Shown in pieces: positions 54,677 to 61,441 of a stretch of 64,000 bases of DNA. Position 1 is the stretch's first letter; every line of letters starts with the position of its first letter. Both the position numbers and the translations under genes were made by a program. Below the pieces are notes generated by a model. That model was given only the letters and a program-made list of their open reading frames with translations, was not told where the DNA came from and ran no database searches. This DNA is from Chromohalobacter marismortui (GTDB taxonomy: Bacteria > Pseudomonadota > Gammaproteobacteria > Pseudomonadales > Halomonadaceae). The stretch covers positions 372,001 through 436,000 of the forward strand of contig NZ_SOBR01000003.1 in assembly GCF_004364315.1 (NCBI RefSeq), given 5' to 3'.

Positions 54677-54717
54677 AGCTTCCTCGTCAGGATTCGAACC
54701 AGGAGTCATATTCTTCC

Positions 54718-56178
54718 ATGCATGACAAGACCCTCACGGAGCTTGCCGCTAGTCTTGAAGCAGGCGAGTTCTCCAGCCGTGAGCTGTGCCAGGCCGCGCT
54801 GCAACGCATCGAGCAGCTCGATGGCGGACTCAACAGCTTCATTACCGTGACCGCCGAGCAGGCACTCGCCAATGCCGACGCCGCTGACCAAGCACGCAAG
54901 GCCGGTCATGCCGGCCCGCTCGCCGGCCTGCCGCTGGCGCTCAAGGACATCTTCTGCACCCAGGGCGTACGCACCAGTTGCGGTTCGAAGATGCTCGACA
55001 GCTTCGTCGCGCCCTATGACGCCACGGTCGTCGAGAAGCTGGGCCACGCCGGCGCCGTCAACCTCGGCAAGACCAACATGGACGAGTTCGCCATGGGCTC
55101 GTCCAACGAAAACAGTTTCTATGGCCCGGTCAAGAACCCCTGGGACGTGAGCGCCGTGCCCGGCGGTTCCTCGGGCGGCAGCGCCGCGGCCGTGGCGGCG
55201 GGCCTGGTACCGGCAGCGCTCGGCACCGATACCGGCGGTTCGATTCGTCAGCCGGCCGCCTTCTGCGGCATCACCGGCCTGAAGCCCACCTACGGGCGTG
55301 TGTCGCGCTACGGCATGGTGGCCTACGCATCGAGCCTCGACCAGGGCGGCCCCATGGCACGCACCGCTGCCGACTGTGCCCTGCTGCTCGAAACCATCGC
55401 CGGCCACGACGTGCGCGATTCCACCAGCGTGGCACGCGTGGTGCCCGACTACTCCGCCGAGCTCGACACCTCGCTGGCCGGCCTCAAGATCGGGCTGCCC
55501 AAGGAATATTTCGGCGACGGGCTCGACCCCGAGGTCGAAACCGCCGTGCGTGACGCGATCAAGGTCTACGAGTCGCTCGGCGCCAAGGTCTGCGAAGTCA
55601 GCCTGCCGCACACGCACCTGGCGATTCCTGCCTACTACGTCATCGCGCCGGCGGAGGCATCGTCCAACCTGTCGCGTTATGACGGTGTGCGCTTCGGCCA
55701 CCGCTGCGAGGATCCGACCGACCTCGAGGACCTCTACAAGCGCACGCGGGCCGAAGGCTTCGGCGAAGAGGTCAAGCGGCGCATCCTGATCGGCACGCAC
55801 ACGCTTTCCGAAGGGTTCTTCGACGCTTACTACCTCAAGGCACAGCAAGTGCGCCGCCTGATCCGTCAGGACTTTCTCGACGCCTTCGACGACGTCGACG
55901 TGCTGATGGGGCCGACCGCCCCCACGCCGGCCTTCGATCTGGGCGCGCAGAAAGATCCGGTCTCGATGTACCTGCAGGATATCTACACCATCGCCGTCAA
56001 CCTGGCCGGCATTCCGGGCATCAGCGTTCCGGTCGGCTTTGCCGGTAACCGCCCCGTCGGCCTCCAGGTGCTGGCTCCGCACTTCGCCGAGGCCCAACTG
56101 CTCGGCGTGGCGCATCAATTCCAGCAGGCCACCGACTGGCACCTCAAGCGTCCGGCATTCGGCAAGGAGATGGCATGA
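54718..56178 (+). CDS. gatA: Glutamyl/aspartyl-tRNA amidotransferase subunit A
   Basis: Glutaminase/amidase subunit of GatCAB. The 486-residue product has the amidase-signature Ser-cisSer-Lys triad: Lys in LPLALKDIF, the Ser pair in [14 protein letters not shown], and [18 protein letters not shown] 54718, with AGGAG about 12 bases upstream, fits the conserved N-terminus; the frame upstream runs into gatC. GC at the third codon position is noticeably high here. Confidence 0.97.
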
Positions 56179-57629
56179 TGCAGTGGGAAACCGTGATCGG
56201 GCTCGAGGTCCACGTTCAGCTCGCCACCCAGTCCAAGATCTTCTCCGGCGCGTCCACCGCCTTCGGCGCCGAGCCCAATACCCAGGCGTGCGCCGTCGAC
56301 CTCGGCATGCCCGGCGTGCTGCCGGTACTCAATGAAAACGCCGTGGCGATGGCGGTGAAATTCGGTCTCGCCGTCGACGCCGAGATCCCCGAAACCTCGT
56401 TGTTCGAGCGCAAGAACTACTTCTACCCGGATTTGCCCAAGGGCTATCAGACGAGTCAGATGGCGCAGCCCATCGTCGGCCCCGGCCAGGTCGAGATCAC
56501 CCTCGACGACGGTTCGACGCGCAGCGTCCGCATTCATCACGCTCACCTCGAGGAAGATGCCGGCAAGTCGCTGCACGAGGACTATCACGGCATGACCGGC
56601 ATCGATCTCAACCGTGCCGGCACGCCGCTGCTGGAGATCGTCTCCGAGCCCGACATGCGCTCGGCCAAGGAAGCGGTCGCCTACATCAAGGCACTGCACG
56701 CCATCGTCACCTATCTCGGCATCTCCGACGGCAACATGGCCGAAGGCTCGATGCGCTGCGACGTCAACGTCTCGGTGCGTCCCAAGGGGCAGGCCGCTTT
56801 CGGCACTCGCGCCGAGATCAAGAACGTCAACTCGTTTCGCTTCGTCGAGAAGGCCATCGCCTTCGAGGTCGAGCGCCAGATCGAACTCATCGACGATGGC
56901 GGTCAGGTCGTGCAGGAAACGCGACTGTTCGACCCGGAACGCGACGAGACGCGCGGCATGCGCACCAAGGAAGAAGCCAACGACTACCGTTACTTCCCCT
57001 GTCCCGACCTGCTTCCAGTGATGCTCGACGGTGCCTATGTCGATCACCAGCGCGCACTCATGCCTGAACTGCCCAGCGAAAAGCGCCACCGCTTCGAAAA
57101 CCAGCTGGGCTTGTCCGCCTATGACGCCGGCGTGCTGGCCTCGAGCCGTGCCATGGCCGAGTACTTCGAAGCCGTCAAGGATGTCTGCGGCGACGCCAAG
57201 CAGGCCGCCAACTGGGTACAAGGCGAACTCTCGGCCAACCTCAACCGCGAAAACCTGGAGATCGACGATAGCCCGGTCACGGCCGGGCAGCTCGGCGGCC
57301 TCATTCAGCGCGTCATGGACGACACCATCAGCGGCAAGGCCGCCAAGCAGGTCTTCCAGGCGCTGTGGGACGGCGAGGCGGACAGCGCCGATGCCATCAT
57401 CGAGGCCCGCGGGCTCAAGCAGGTCACCGATACCGGCGCCATCGAAGGCATGATCGACCAGGTCATCGCCGACAGCCCGGTTCAGGTCGCCCAGTACCGT
57501 GAAGCCGACGAGGCCAAGCGCGGCAAGATGATCGGCTACTTCGTCGGCCAGGTCATGAAAGCCTCGCGCGGCACCGCCAACCCGCAACAGGTCAACAGCC
57601 TCCTCAAGCAGAAGCTGGATCAGGCTTGA
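56175..57629 (+). CDS. gatB: Glutamyl/aspartyl-tRNA amidotransferase subunit B
   Basis: Kinase-like subunit that activates the misacylated tRNA. The 484-residue product has [22 protein letters not shown] at the N-terminus, [44 protein letters not shown] and a C-terminal tRNA-binding YqeY/GatB domain ending [19 protein letters not shown] overlaps the gatA stop by 4 bases. Confidence 0.97.
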
Positions 57630-57645: not shown

Positions 57646-59367
57646 TTAATTCAACCACCACGACAGCAACAACAGTAGCAGCAGCACACCGGCCACGACT
57701 TTCCACAGCGTGGCCGGTTGCTGCCATGGCTGGTGCGGCTCAGGGTCATCACGCCGCCTGGGCGTGCGCAAATGGTAGGCGAACTCCCCCAGACGCCGGA
57801 ATCGCAGCGCACGCTGCGGATCGAGCGCACGCCGCAGTGCGTCATCGAGCTCAGCACCGATCGCCGGATTATAGCGGCGTGCACTGGTGTAGCTCATGCG
57901 CTCAAGATCGGTATGGCTGCGCAATTCGTTGGGCGCCAGCGCATAAGGCTGATGGCCGGTCAGCAGCCAGTAGATGGTCGAGGCCAATCCATATTGGTCG
58001 CTACGCCGTCCCACCTCAGTGTCCAGGGCGTATTCGGGGGCGCTATGCTCGGTCAACCCCACCTGCCGCGCCAGTTCACGCGCCCCTTGCTGGCTATCGC
58101 TTTCACGCAAGTGGCAGGCACCGAAATCCGTCAACACCAGCTGGCCATGTGTATCGACCATCAGATTATCGGGATGGATATTCTGATGCATCACATCACG
58201 ACGATGCAGGGCCTGCACTGCCTTGACCAATTGCCGCGCCAAATCCAGGCGCGCCTCGAGACTGGCCTGGGGATGACGCAACGCCCAATCGCTGAGCGAT
58301 TCGCCCTTGATGTAATCGATCAGATAATACTGGTAGCGTCGTGGTCGAGCCGAATCCACGACCTTGGGCAAGAACGGTGAGTTGACGCGCTGCACGACCC
58401 ACTGCTGAAGCGCGAAATGCTCCTGATAGGCGTTGCGCAGCGACAGCTCGGGGCTGGGCGCCTTCATCACCATCTCGCGCTCGTTGCGGGCGTCCCGCAC
58501 ACGATAGACGCGTGACTTGGCGGTGCGCGACAGCACCTCGAGCACCTCCAGCCCATCGAGACGCTCACCGGGCGTCAATTCGGGCGGCACCGGCAAGTCG
58601 CCATACAGCGGCACGGGATGCTCCGGCTCGACCTCTTCGGGCAAGCGATCGATGCGCACCAGCTGGAAGCAGAACTGATCGCCGCCGTAGCCACGCTCCT
58701 GGGCACGCCTGTGCGCCGCCTCGGCCAGACGTTCGCAGGCCGCGTCGAGATCGCTGACATCGGCGCGGATCAGTTGCACGAAATCCGAGGGCAGCAAGGT
58801 CCCGCGCACAGCCTGGGTGGTAAACAGGAAGAGATCGCCCTGCTTGAGTGAATCCGTCGCATAATCGATATCCAGGCTACCGTCCATGCCCAGTGCACGC
58901 GACGGATAGCGATAGCCGCCCAAGTCGGTGACATGGTCGCGAGACAATTGCTCGAATTCGGCCCCCCGCAGACGAAAGACCAATGTGTCGCCCATGTGAA
59001 ACAGGTGCATTTCACGACGACGGAACACCATGGCCGAGAGGGAGCAAATATAACTGCCGCCTTCGATGTAGGCGCTTTGGCTATAACTCCAGCTATTCAG
59101 GGCACGCAGCACACGATGCGCCGATGTCTTGACATCCCAATGTTCCGGGGTCGAATAATAATCGGCAAGAAAGCCTCGTACGCTCAGGTCTCCGGCCTGT
59201 TTGGCGATCGCGTTGCGCCAAGTGGAATCACTGATCAGCGCGCAAGCGCCCTTGGCGGACAGCTGAGAGCCAGCGGGCACCTGGACCGACATCGAGCTGC
59301 GATGACGACGTCGATCCGGTGCCACGAACGCCTGCCCGAAGCTGATAGAAAGGCTGCTTTCCGTCAA
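57646..59367 (-). CDS. Fused PP2C-like and Ser/Thr protein-kinase-like protein, both centres degenerate
   Basis: 573 residues: an N-terminal PP2C-fold domain (about 1-240), a protein-kinase domain (about 270-535) and a C-terminal transmembrane helix (556-572). TTG start with AGGAG 7 bases upstream. Family members I recall act as bifunctional kinase/phosphatase proteins near nitrate-assimilation genes. Here the PP2C metal-binding positions are altered. The early Asp (NQD) is not found, the DG pair reads Asp47-Ser48, the TTDG site reads TTQA (183-186) and DN reads Asp230-Gln. HMGD (124-127) remains. In the kinase, Lys302 and DFG (414-416) remain, but HRDLKPEN reads HQNIHPDN (394-401), so the catalytic Asp is Asn396. 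It may be a scaffold or sensor rather than an enzyme. Confidence 0.8.
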   Translation of the reverse strand: MTESSLSISFGQAFVAPDRRRHRSSMSVQVPAGSQLSAKGACALISDSTWRNAIAKQAGDLSVRGFLADYYSTPEHWDVKTSAHRVLRALNSWSYSQSAYIEGGSYICSLSAMVFRRREMHLFHMGDTLVFRLRGAEFEQLSRDHVTDLGGYRYPSRALGMDGSLDIDYATDSLKQGDLFLFTTQAVRGTLLPSDFVQLIRADVSDLDAACERLAEAAHRRAQERGYGGDQFCFQLVRIDRLPEEVEPEHPVPLYGDLPVPPELTPGERLDGLEVLEVLSRTAKSRVYRVRDARNEREMVMKAPSPELSLRNAYQEHFALQQWVVQRVNSPFLPKVVDSARPRRYQYYLIDYIKGESLSDWALRHPQASLEARLDLARQLVKAVQALHRRDVMHQNIHPDNLMVDTHGQLVLTDFGACHLRESDSQQGARELARQVGLTEHSAPEYALDTEVGRRSDQYGLASTIYWLLTGHQPYALAPNELRSHTDLERMSYTSARRYNPAIGAELDDALRRALDPQRALRFRRLGEFAYHLRTPRRRDDPEPHQPWQQPATLWKVVAGVLLLLLLLSWWLN

Positions 59368-59471
59368 CGATCGTCTCCTTGTCGATGATGATGAGACGGA
59401 TAATTCTTGCGAGCGATGAGCATGGCAACACCAGACGACGATTGCATGATCTCATTGACGTCCCACGCCGG

Positions 59472-59501
59472 TTGGTAAACGCTGGACGCTACTCGTATAA
59501 T
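59472..59501 (+). promoter_or_regulatory. Sigma-70 promoter of ppa
   Basis: TTGGTA (59472-59477), 18 bases, perfect TATAAT (59496-59501), 54 bases before the ppa start. Confidence 0.6.
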
Positions 59502-59554
59502 TTCTCGGATTTTCTCCCGCTGGTGTTCAACCTGCAAACCGCAAGGACTCGACG

Positions 59555-60085
59555 ATGAGTTTCAACAACATTCCCGCTGGCAAGGATCTCCCCAACGACG
59601 TCTACGTGGCGATCGAGATTCCCGCCAATCACGCACCGATCAAGTACGAGATCGACAAGGACATGGATGCGCTGGTCGTCGACCGCTTCATGGCCACACC
59701 AATGTTCTACCCGGCCAACTACGGCTTCATCAACAACACCCTGGCCGACGATGGCGACCCACTCGACGCACTCGTGGTCACCCCCTACCCGGTTCAGGCA
59801 GGCAGTGTGATTCGCGCGCGCCCGGTCGGCGTACTCAACATGTCCGACGAAGCCGGCGAAGACGCCAAGCTGGTCTGCGTCCCGCACCCCAAGCTGAGCG
59901 CCCTGTATGACGACGTACAGGAAGTCACCGACCTCCCCGAACTGCTGCGTCAGCAGATCGCGCATTTCTTCGAGAACTACAAGGATCTCGAAAAAGGCAA
60001 ATGGGTGAAGATCGACTCCTGGGATGGCGCCGAGGCCGCCCGCAAGGCCATCGAGAAAGCCGCCGACGCTTACACCAAAGCCTGA
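59555..60085 (+). CDS. ppa: Inorganic pyrophosphatase
   Basis: Family I soluble pyrophosphatase that pulls biosynthetic reactions forward. The 176-residue product, the standard size, has [44 protein letters not shown] (the PPase signature with catalytic Asp residues) and [19 protein letters not shown]. It is preceded by a near-consensus promoter and followed by a strong hairpin. Confidence 0.98.
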
Positions 60086-60103: not shown

Positions 60104-61174
60104 TCACCCCGCGTCGCTCCCCCGACGCGGGGTGTCTGGTTCAGGGGTATCACTCGTCGAGCTAGACGCTTCGAGATCGCTACGTATGCGGGCGATCAGT
60201 TGCGATGCCTGCAACGTATAATTCGCCATCATCAACGAGTGGTTGGCGAAGATACCGAAACCGCTGCCGTTGAGCACGATGGGGCTCCATAGGGGCGCCT
60301 GCGAGGCATCGAGCTCAGCGATCAACTGATCGAACGCCGTGCCGACTCCGGCCGCTTCGATGGCCGGCGCGAAGTCTCGCCTGGCAGCGTCGAGAAGGTG
60401 CTTCAGGGCCCAGGTATTACCGCGCGCTTCGAAGAAAACGTTGTCGATACGCCACCACGGCGTGTTCACGCCATCCTCGCCGCGTTCGATATCGGCACTA
60501 CGACGCTCGGCGTGCCCCACGCTCGCTGCCAGCCGCTGGGTCTGCCGCTCGAGACGAGTCTGCACGCGCCCAAGCCAAGCCGCCAACGCTGGCGCCTCCT
60601 GAGAGAAGCTCGCCTGCTGCTCTCGCAGACGCCCCAGATAATCGCGCAGCGCCTCGCGCGCCGCCTGATAACGCCCTTCGGCGGATGGAAAACGCCAAGC
60701 GTCACTGTGCGTCTCCAGGGCATCGACGGCGTGTTGCAGAGTATCGTTAGTGCCATCGGTGATCGCACCATTGAGCGCCGCACTCATGGCCCTGACTTGC
60801 CCGAGCACGCCCTGCTCCCAGCTCGGCATGTTATCCAGCCACAGCCCCGGCGGCGCGATATCGTTACGCAAATAGCCACCGGGCTTGTCGAGCAAGCTGC
60901 CGAGTAACGTCACCGTGGTGGCGAGCACGGTCTCGCCGGGACGGGACGCATCCGTCACGGCCTCGGCACCGGAGGACTGCGCAGCGCCACGCTGCAAGCT
61001 CACCGCATCGTCGACATTGAAAGCATCGGGGCGCTGGCTCCACCAAACGCCCAATGCCACACAAACCACGAGGTAGATAACCAGCAAGGCGATCAGGGGT
61101 TTCCAGATCCAGCCATACTGAGGCGATTCCAGCACATTGCGCTGGTCACGCTCACGCTTGCGAAAAAGAGCCAT
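60104..61174 (-). CDS. DUF2333 family membrane-anchored protein
   Basis: Conserved hypothetical protein of the DUF2333 family, function unknown to me. ATG 61174 has AGGA 7 bases upstream; the longer frame is not conserved. The 356-residue product has a transmembrane helix at about 26-46 (PLIALLVIYLVVCVALGVWW). A large periplasmic, mostly helical domain follows (GGYLRNDIAPPGLWLDNMPSWEQGVLGQV, RIDNVFFEARGNTWALKHLL). The Ser/Thr/Pro-rich C-terminal tail is encoded across the terminator hairpin. Confidence 0.85.
   Translation of the reverse strand: MALFRKRERDQRNVLESPQYGWIWKPLIALLVIYLVVCVALGVWWSQRPDAFNVDDAVSLQRGAAQSSGAEAVTDASRPGETVLATTVTLLGSLLDKPGGYLRNDIAPPGLWLDNMPSWEQGVLGQVRAMSAALNGAITDGTNDTLQHAVDALETHSDAWRFPSAEGRYQAAREALRDYLGRLREQQASFSQEAPALAAWLGRVQTRLERQTQRLAASVGHAERRSADIERGEDGVNTPWWRIDNVFFEARGNTWALKHLLDAARRDFAPAIEAAGVGTAFDQLIAELDASQAPLWSPIVLNGSGFGIFANHSLMMANYTLQASQLIARIRSDLEASSSTSDTPEPDTPRRGSDAG
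60105..60134. terminator. Hairpin between convergent ppa and DUF2333 gene
   Basis: Perfect 12-base-pair stem CACCCCGCGTCG / CGACGCGGGGTG (60105-60116 with 60123-60134), loop CTCCCC. It lies entirely within the last codons of the DUF2333 gene and 19 bases after the ppa stop. No T-run follows. Confidence 0.55.
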
Positions 61175-61441
61175 GATGACGTCCTTGTATGAAGTTGAGA
61201 GCGGTGACTTCCATCCTATCACGCAGTCGCGTTTTTGCCGTCGCTATGATGCATGCTCAAGGACATCCGTCCTCGGTGGCCAAAAGGCATCACAACAATT
61301 GCAAACTAGACAGTTCGCCAGTTTTTGGGCAAACTCCGCTCACGCTAACGATATATGGCACCAGCGGCGGTATCTTGCATGATCGTGCCGTGATCTAAGC
61401 CAATCCTGAACAGGTTAACAGCGTCGATCTGGACTCATGAC

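Follow-up and report, generated by a model that had tools for sequence, protein, structure and literature searches.

A likely double pseudoenzyme among the PP2C–kinase fusion proteins of the Halomonadaceae

Introduction

PP2C proteins containing a Pkinase domain are reported mainly from Pseudomonadota, and a survey of bacterial PP2C proteins considers a dual activity possible for them (PMC12088040); the words "inactive," "bifunctional" and "Halomonas" are absent from the available text of this survey. Here we analyze a fusion gene of this kind, located in a 64,000-nt stretch of the Chromohalobacter marismortui genome (Pseudomonadota, Halomonadaceae; assembly GCF_004364315.1, contig NZ_SOBR01000003.1, positions 372,001 to 436,000), referred to below as the window, whose numbering is used throughout. 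A preliminary description, made from the DNA letters, had suggested that both catalytic centers of the encoded protein are inactivated in an otherwise intact frame. We denote by X the Halomonadaceae PP2C–kinase protein without the catalytic aspartates, and by A, the homologs with intact residues.

Among bacterial kinase-like proteins, seven pseudokinase-rich families are distinguished in a total of 42 families, in a study whose main text, in its available part, does not contain the word PP2C (PMC12599244); nor does the available text of a pseudoenzyme review (PMC10211241). In unicellular holozoans, a kinase domain is present in some PHLPP homologs that have active-site residues, according to the accessible part of their description (PMC12002173). 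A published description of X was not found in the titles or abstract openings listed by searches of the open PMC literature with the terms used.

Loss of catalytic residues in both domains

57646..59367, minus strand: gene X, likely double pseudoenzyme of 573 amino acids with a TTG start; open reading frame with a match in 250/250 Halomonadaceae genomes sampled

Residue counts refer to 145 distinct X orthologs (identical sequences collapsed), numbered as the window protein, and the comparison outside the clade, to 111 distinct homologs from 117 loci, Halomonadaceae paralogs (e.g., L133–L137) included; these loci are not a random sample, coming mainly from the upper part of the match list, and their flanks are unequal. 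Eighty contig loci of X were retrieved with peptide patterns, residue 396 being covered by one of these, and 67 distinct X sequences from motif-blind whole-genome searches are quoted separately as a cleaner set. Rows removed before counting are the fragment L176a and those of the single-contig Halomonadaceae genome G204 (L125, L138, and L191 at G204:C1:3475500-3483200), where X lies in two pieces in different frames, split at about residue 426, owing to a sequence error or to a break that occurred recently.

None of the 145 X proteins, and none of the 67 in the motif-blind set, has an aspartate at position 24, 185 or 396, while D24, D47, G48, D127, D185, D230, N231, K302, E321, D396, N401 and D414 are kept in all 111 homologs outside the clade, a contrast that chance does not explain. 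The residues named in the preliminary description were all found in the DNA (Q185-A186, encoded by CAG GCT; D47-S48; D230-Q231; N396, AAT; H398; K302, AAG; D414-F415-G416), and the losses, when mapped across the Halomonadaceae as it had proposed, turn out to be family-wide and not limited to one strain. In the PP2C half, the relevant positions are as follows.

59296..59301, minus strand: R23-S24, in place of the last residues of PP2C motif 1 (N-Q/E-D); R and S in 145/145 X, Asp24 in 111/111 homologs outside the clade
59224..59229, minus strand: D47-S48, replacing the DG of motif 2; D in 144/145, position 48 S in 131, T in 12, A in 2; Gly in 111/111 outside the clade
58987..58989, minus strand: D127, the motif 5 Asp, retained in 145/145
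58810..58815, minus strand: Q185-A186, replacing the DG metal ligand of motif 8; Q in 124, R in 18, P in 3 of 145; Asp in 111/111 outside the clade
58675..58695, minus strand: R225-G-Y-G-G-D-Q231, an X-specific insertion and altered motif 11; R225, G226 and Y227 opposite gaps in 49/49 active homologs, Asp230 in 96/145

Motifs 2, 8 and 11 supply the aspartates of the binuclear metal center of PP2C phosphatases, as stated in the available text of the survey (PMC12088040), and only that of motif 2 is kept in nearly all X. The expected losses in motifs 1, 2 and 8 are borne out across the 145 proteins, the early motif, earlier considered not recognizable, aligning its N-Q/E-D with H22-R23-S24. For motif 11, the reading of DN as DQ holds for the window protein (D230-Q231), and has to be supplemented by the insertion at this place and by the variation of position 230 in the family (Asp in 96, Glu in 23, Asn in 18, other residues in 8). 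A conserved acidic replacement for the aspartates lost at positions 24, 185 or 396, which might have compensated for the loss, was not found in the 145 X proteins; motif 11 is ambiguous in this respect.

The corresponding positions of the kinase half are given below.

58462..58464, minus strand: K302, the beta-3 Lys, retained; K in 141, R in 3, A in 1 of 145
58405..58407, minus strand: Q321, replacing the alpha-C Glu; Q in 144, E in 1 of 145; Glu in 111/111 outside the clade
58165..58188, minus strand: catalytic loop H394-Q-N-I-H-P-D-N401, with N396 at the position of the HRD Asp; residue 396 is Q in 77, R in 28, H in 17, N in 9, G in 4, S in 3, L in 3, I in 2, A in 2, and Asp in none of 145
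58120..58128, minus strand: D414-F-G416, the DFG motif; D in 142/145; position 416 S in 101, G in 38, A in 4, N in 1, V in 1

Two features of active Hanks kinases, the beta-3 lysine and the DFG aspartate, are present in X, and two, the HRD aspartate and the alpha-C glutamate, are absent. This agrees with the initial reading of N396 and H398 in place of the HRD Asp and the following Lys, with Lys302 and DFG kept; the loss of the alpha-C glutamate is an addition to it. H394, Q395 and N401 are kept in 143, 145 and 139 of the X proteins, respectively. In the kinase half of X, position 396 ranks at the 91st percentile for variability, K302 at the 25th, N401 at the 35th and D414 at the 21st, and hence the phosphotransfer base was released from constraint, the nucleotide-holding residues being mostly kept.

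The same residues bear on the possibility that X has a catalytic activity with an unorthodox mechanism, e.g., that its kinase half performs AMPylation or a different ATP-dependent transfer. It could explain why K302, N401 and D414, which hold the nucleotide and metal in kinases, are near-invariant, and activities of this kind are reported for the bacterial pseudokinases SelO and SidJ in the available part of the pseudokinase study (PMC12599244). Still, variation is free at both position 396 (nine residue types among 145 proteins) and position 398 (eight), the catalytic loop has gained no new conserved acidic residue, and the alpha-C glutamate is glutamine in all proteins but one, so that we regard such an activity as improbable. 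In a few lineages K302 is replaced by Arg (L118) or Ala (L132), and N401 is lost (L129, L130, L132); nucleotide binding by the pseudokinase may have been lost again in these lineages.

Distribution and origin

The 250 genomes with a match to X represent 24 genera, and in 248 of them the match has an E-value of 8.9e-162 or better, the two weaker genomes being less complete assemblies (G086, 77% complete, 6.7e-93; G089, 88% complete, 2.0e-6). The nearest named relatives of the window protein are from Chromohalobacter species (93–94% identity). The best match outside the family has an E-value of 2.7e-116 and spans residues 4–568, that is, X aligns with intact homologs over nearly its full length.

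In two trees (81 and 101 rows) all X rows are separated from the others by a branch with SH-like approximate likelihood ratio test (SH-aLRT) support of 100. The trees were built by a quick method and midpoint-rooted, and the direction of change rests on the catalytic residues being general to PP2C phosphatases and kinases. Apparently, the loss of both catalytic centers happened a single time, close to the base of the Halomonadaceae. An 11-kb stretch of one genome of the order (L197) contains two PP2C–kinase fusions, the second of which has HGD instead of HQD.

Domain structure and membrane anchor

58639..59355, minus strand: PP2C-like pseudophosphatase domain, approximately residues 5–243; AlphaFold model of this half, Foldseek matches to PstP, tPphA and PppA, PP2C_2 match below threshold
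57772..58563, minus strand: pseudokinase domain, approximately residues 269–532; Pfam Pkinase 1.5e-24, Foldseek matches to PknB
57652..57717, minus strand: C-terminal hydrophobic helix, residues 551–572, likely membrane anchor; sequence, and helix 551–572 in the model

The two-domain architecture with a C-terminal anchor, proposed initially from the translation, is reproduced by Pfam, AlphaFold and Foldseek. The Pkinase match is significant (1.5e-24), whereas PP2C_2 scores 14.9 bits (E-value 0.02), under the cut-off of 24 bits, compared to 52.7, 59.6 and 63 bits for three active homologs. The AlphaFold model of the N-terminal half alone has a mean predicted local distance difference test score (pLDDT) of 77 and a predicted TM-score (pTM) of 0.80; its best match among solved structures is PstP (Foldseek E-value 8.5e-12, TM-score 0.63), with tPphA and PppA also among the best. 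In the model of the whole protein pLDDT is 79 and PknB kinase domains lead the Foldseek matches listed, while the pTM of 0.53 makes the mutual placement of the halves uncertain. As the Foldseek matches of the models are to PknB and to PstP, tPphA and PppA, each half has the expected predicted fold, and the PP2C fold of the N-terminal half is supported by modeling. X thus has the features of the fusion family, i.e., an N-terminal PP2C fold, a C-terminal Hanks kinase fold, a C-terminal hydrophobic helix and a length of about 570–590 amino acids. W555 from the C-terminal helix is kept in 145/145 X and in 49/49 active homologs.

The TTG start with a strong ribosome-binding site, proposed earlier, stands: the frame of 573 codons is preceded by AAGGAG, and the first codon in 117 X genes is TTG in 87, GTG in 12 and ATG in 3.

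A defense kinase was considered because of matches of X to the NCBIfam profile MADS6 and to PADLOC profiles, and was ruled out, the scores being below the cut-offs (MADS6, 103.5 vs. 460 bits; PglW, 46.2 vs. 990 bits) and the neighbors being housekeeping genes; the PADLOC matches fall in the kinase half (the best, 8.4e-39, with no cut-off given), and X does not belong with MADS6, PD-T4-6 or PglW. A DotU match at the C-terminus (E-value 0.042), also under the cut-off, was disregarded.

Selection and pattern of constraint

X is under strong purifying selection within Chromohalobacter. The mean ratio of nonsynonymous to synonymous substitution rates (dN/dS, NG86) of the window gene to eight Chromohalobacter orthologs is 0.050, with no sign of the elevation that, according to the preliminary description, would indicate simple decay. 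For comparison, the ratio is 0.057 for aroQ and 0.042 for accC (eight orthologs each), 0.051 for gatB and 0.140 for gatA (five each, at low synonymous divergence, dS), 0.010 for mreB (five), and 0.026 for ppa and 0.175 for the DUF2333 gene (eight each). By halves, it is 0.025–0.039 for PP2C and 0.040–0.059 for the kinase (seven within-genus comparisons); three more distant comparisons of X yield 0.084–0.141 at dS of 1.2–2.6, where the method saturates.

The losses are selective. Out of 44 positions invariant in 49 active homologs, 14 are kept by less than 10% of X (G17, N22, D24, A46, G48, L94, T109, R129, L155, D185, N231, E321, D396 and W506), nine of which (N22, D24, G48, T109, R129, D185, N231, E321, D396) are, by our own assignment, in or beside catalytic motifs; among the remaining 30, 26 are shared by 90% or more of X, and positions 186, 230, 416 and 504 vary. 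On the contrary, 52 residues are near-invariant in X and rare in the active set, 32 belonging to the PP2C half and 19 to the kinase half, including R23-S24, N52, Q57, G104, Y152, P155, G189-T190, the inserted R225-G226-Y227, and F232-C233-F234. The mean entropy in X is 0.83 bits in the PP2C half and 1.13 bits in the kinase half (46 sequences below 88% identity).

These observations largely refute early decay of the gene, i.e., a pseudogene-like drift, to which we assign almost no weight. The catalytic residues are indeed lost, the gene is split between frames in G204, and N401, K302 or D414 is lost in a few lineages; but the dN/dS of 0.050 is like that of nearby housekeeping genes, nearly all genomes (248/250) retain a strong match, X has invariant residues of its own, and TTG is kept at position 1 in 87/117 genes. 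Pseudogene-like decay was therefore rejected on the grounds of the low dN/dS and conservation.

Other kinases and phosphatases in the host genome

A search for an active paralog, suggested in the preliminary description, retrieved none: in the genome containing the window (99.99% complete) there is no second match to X or to the active homolog L172, and X is the only match to Pkinase (PF00069). It is also the only Pkinase match over the cut-off in 10/10 Chromohalobacter genomes, one of which has a further sub-threshold match. Neither PP2C_2 (PF13672) nor PP2C (PF00481) has a match in the genome containing the window, these models being blind to divergent PP2C domains, as X itself is missed by them. 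The genome has one SpoIIE-type phosphatase gene, and no FHA match was found in it.

One could suppose that X is a dominant-negative or decoy partner of an active PP2C–kinase paralog, as an intact paralog is present in some Halomonadaceae. In one checked case (L172) it follows genes with molybdopterin oxidoreductase and tetrapyrrole methylase domains, surroundings different from those of X, which we read as a nitrate-assimilation operon. However, such paralogs are patchy: a second near-full-length match is seen in five out of 24 genomes (G163, G010, G004, G021 and G071, that of G010 with an internal stop), and the host genome of the window has neither a paralog nor any other Pkinase match. As X is the sole Pkinase match over the cut-off in the Chromohalobacter genomes, a decoy role for an active sister cannot be general, and we consider it very improbable.

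Gene neighborhood

59368..59554, no strand: intergenic region between the divergent X and ppa; in nine regions inspected by eye, blocks interpreted as promoter elements
59555..60085, plus strand: ppa, inorganic diphosphatase, head-to-head neighbor; NCBIfam NF002317, 286 bits vs. a cut-off of 200; head-to-head with X in 80/80 contig loci

The start of X is 187 bases from the divergent ppa start, and its stop is 16 bases from the convergent stop of gatB, whose identity is confirmed by NCBIfam. The two neighbors named in the preliminary description fare differently. The ppa gene is head-to-head with X in 143/147 X loci, the exceptions being two genomes counted twice (L131/L183, L132/L184), and so is a nearly family-wide neighbor; as the 147 loci count some genomes two or three times (that of the window as L001, L199 and L200), the subsets of 80 and 77 loci are cleaner. 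The gatB gene, on the contrary, is beside X only in Chromohalobacter, and even there not genus-wide (in seven of nine genomes of the genus with about 1.5 kb downstream), so that its adjacency was dropped as a functional clue.

A convergent gene of inorganic pyrophosphate (PPi)-dependent phosphofructokinase (PPi-PFK) is located downstream of X in 67/77 contig loci with at least 2 kb downstream (NCBIfam, diphosphate–fructose-6-phosphate 1-phosphotransferase; the L038 copy scores 646 bits vs. a cut-off of 273). The ten loci without it are seven from Chromohalobacter (L031, L032, L034–L037, L094) and three Salinicola-type ones (L039, L105, L109). In 13 loci chosen across deeper genera, it is found in nine (with other genes between in L180), and not in L179, L182, L183 and L184. 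PPi-PFK is often followed by mpl (26/90 loci within the fetched stretch). In the genome of the window, the PPi-PFK gene (90% identical) is on another contig, beside mpl.

Parts of this block accompany intact homologs as well, 19/117 of their loci showing PPi-PFK, ppa, DUF2333 or mpl. A nearby convergent PPi-PFK gene is found in L147, L148/L243 (both from one genome), L248 and L254, and in L250, L262 and L275 the distance to PPi-PFK is about 5 kb; L269 and L273 have DUF2333 with head-to-head ppa, L257 and L258 have DUF2333, L244 has ppa at a greater distance, and mpl is nearby in L139, L145, L154 and L288–L290. These loci do not form one clade. Thus, the PPi gene block is an old but not universal association of PP2C–kinase fusions.

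The neighbors also allow for binding and regulation by X in a role unrelated to PPi, e.g., in envelope or cell-wall signaling, since mpl is two genes away in many genomes and near some active homologs, and X is transcribed away from ppa. Cell-wall enzymes are often controlled by Hanks kinases. Nevertheless, head-to-head ppa is the most persistent feature of the locus, and we treat the unrelated role as possible, though doubtful.

Several further features of the region were observed. In the ppa–X intergenic region (59368–59554), GAATTATACGA-like and GATTACCAAT-like blocks recur across genera and, on visual inspection, were taken for a strong ppa promoter; in several such regions a TATCAT-like block is nearer X. 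The DUF2333 gene next to ppa (60104–61222; Pfam 5e-82) evolves fast (dN/dS 0.175, 80% identity within the genus), and is also found by ppa or an intact homolog in another family (L257, L258, L269, L273). For gatA/gatB (54715–57629), dS to some Chromohalobacter is 0.08–0.20 in five of six rows, with one gatA row at 0.49, compared to about 0.7 for X and about 0.6 for mreB; this difference suggests recombination of the gatAB segment.

Functional interpretation

The initial proposal of a double pseudoenzyme kept intact is supported by the losses in 145/145 X and the dN/dS of 0.050, and neither conserved compensating acidic residues at positions 24, 185 and 396 nor an active paralog in the genome were found. 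We consider it likely that X is a non-catalytic, membrane-tethered nucleotide- and/or ligand-binding regulator, the Halomonadaceae version of the PP2C–kinase fusion with both centers lost, and, judging by its residues, it probably works by binding rather than catalysis. The loss of both catalytic centers in the Halomonadaceae ancestor would have spared the fold, the anchor in the membrane and the ppa-adjacent position, and X would perform neither phosphotransfer nor dephosphorylation. As K302, N401 and D414 are retained in most lineages and lost in a few, nucleotide binding by the pseudokinase half is probable for the majority of lineages, though not for every one, and would serve as a structural or allosteric switch. 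The pseudo-PP2C half, more constrained and with a refitted former active site, may bind a conserved ligand or partner, the former site (fixed R23, S24 and D127, near-fixed D47, and the conserved insertion) being the most likely functional surface. The C-terminal helix would tether X at the inner membrane.

Several points weigh against this interpretation. The complete absence of activity is not implied, as, by analogy, proteins without the HRD Asp can have other transferase activities, and residual metal binding is possible, given the motif 2 and motif 5 aspartates and Asp230 of the window protein. K302 is R in three and A in one of the 145 proteins, N401 is not N in six, and D414 is not D in three; hence nucleotide binding cannot be assumed in every X. 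The PP2C half is slightly more conserved in the active set too (1.63 vs. 1.73 bits). PF13672 and PF00481, which have no match in the genome, miss X as well. Finally, the link of X to its PPi neighbors may be passive: the direction of transcription of X is away from ppa, and in the Chromohalobacter and Salinicola-type loci examined X has no PPi-PFK gene next to it.

Since an active Hanks kinase that X could modulate is apparently absent from Chromohalobacter, the proposed binding regulator more likely targets a non-kinase protein. First candidates would be the PPi enzymes encoded alongside, i.e., the pyrophosphatase and, in most other genera, PPi-PFK. A link of X to pyrophosphate metabolism is plausible, while these enzymes as direct partners are the best positional guess, and an unlikely one. 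In its most specific form, which we offer tentatively and with low expectation, X would be a sensor-regulator of PPi (or of the nucleotide or phosphate state), both former pockets sensing and direct binding controlling Ppa and/or PPi-PFK; a kinase–phosphatase encoded in or near the PPi block in several families would have become a membrane-tethered binder in the Halomonadaceae ancestor. If the PPi link is true, it would suggest an undescribed control point of PPi-dependent glycolysis. A transposon essentiality screen of Halomonas was looked for in the open PMC literature and did not appear among the papers listed.

Irrespective of the target, calling X a kinase or phosphatase from domain matches would mislead phosphoproteomics and metabolic models of halophiles. 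X is also a natural experiment on the function of a kinase–phosphatase fusion beyond catalysis, with the intact homologs that related families carry in parts of this gene block serving as controls.

Comparison with known systems

Both folds and the idea of a pseudoenzyme are known; what is new is that, throughout a family, both opposing partners of a fusion have lost catalytic residues, while intact homologs lie in related gene blocks. The closest relatives are the PP2C–kinase fusions of Pseudomonadota (A), which are similar to X in length, domain order and the C-terminal helix at about 29–38% identity, and some of which lie in parts of the same gene block; unlike X, 111/111 of them keep the catalytic residues of both domains.

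As far as the available part of the pseudokinase study describes them (PMC12599244), the bacterial families ActPs1–3, DLHK, GLW, CP1 and DYD share with X a Hanks fold with a lost catalytic motif. GLW proteins are also proteobacterial and have a C-terminal transmembrane region, but the beta-3 Lys is replaced and GLW stands for HRD, whereas X keeps Lys302 and H-Q, so that with H-Q-N and K302 it falls outside the GLW definition. DYD proteins, like X, have no alpha-C Glu, but have Arg for the beta-3 Lys, and come from actinobacteria and firmicutes. EssB/YukC of type VII secretion is, similarly to X, a membrane-anchored bacterial pseudokinase with a non-catalytic role, but all three of its motifs are degraded and its role is in a secretion system, whereas the neighbors seen for X are housekeeping genes.

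Among PP2C proteins, the parallel is with TAB1 and PHLPP2, which, according to the accessible part of their description (PMC12002173), keep the PP2C fold with a diverged active site, and are ancient and conserved, a scaffold role being proposed for PHLPP2; these are eukaryotic, and no fusion with a pseudokinase is described for them in that text.

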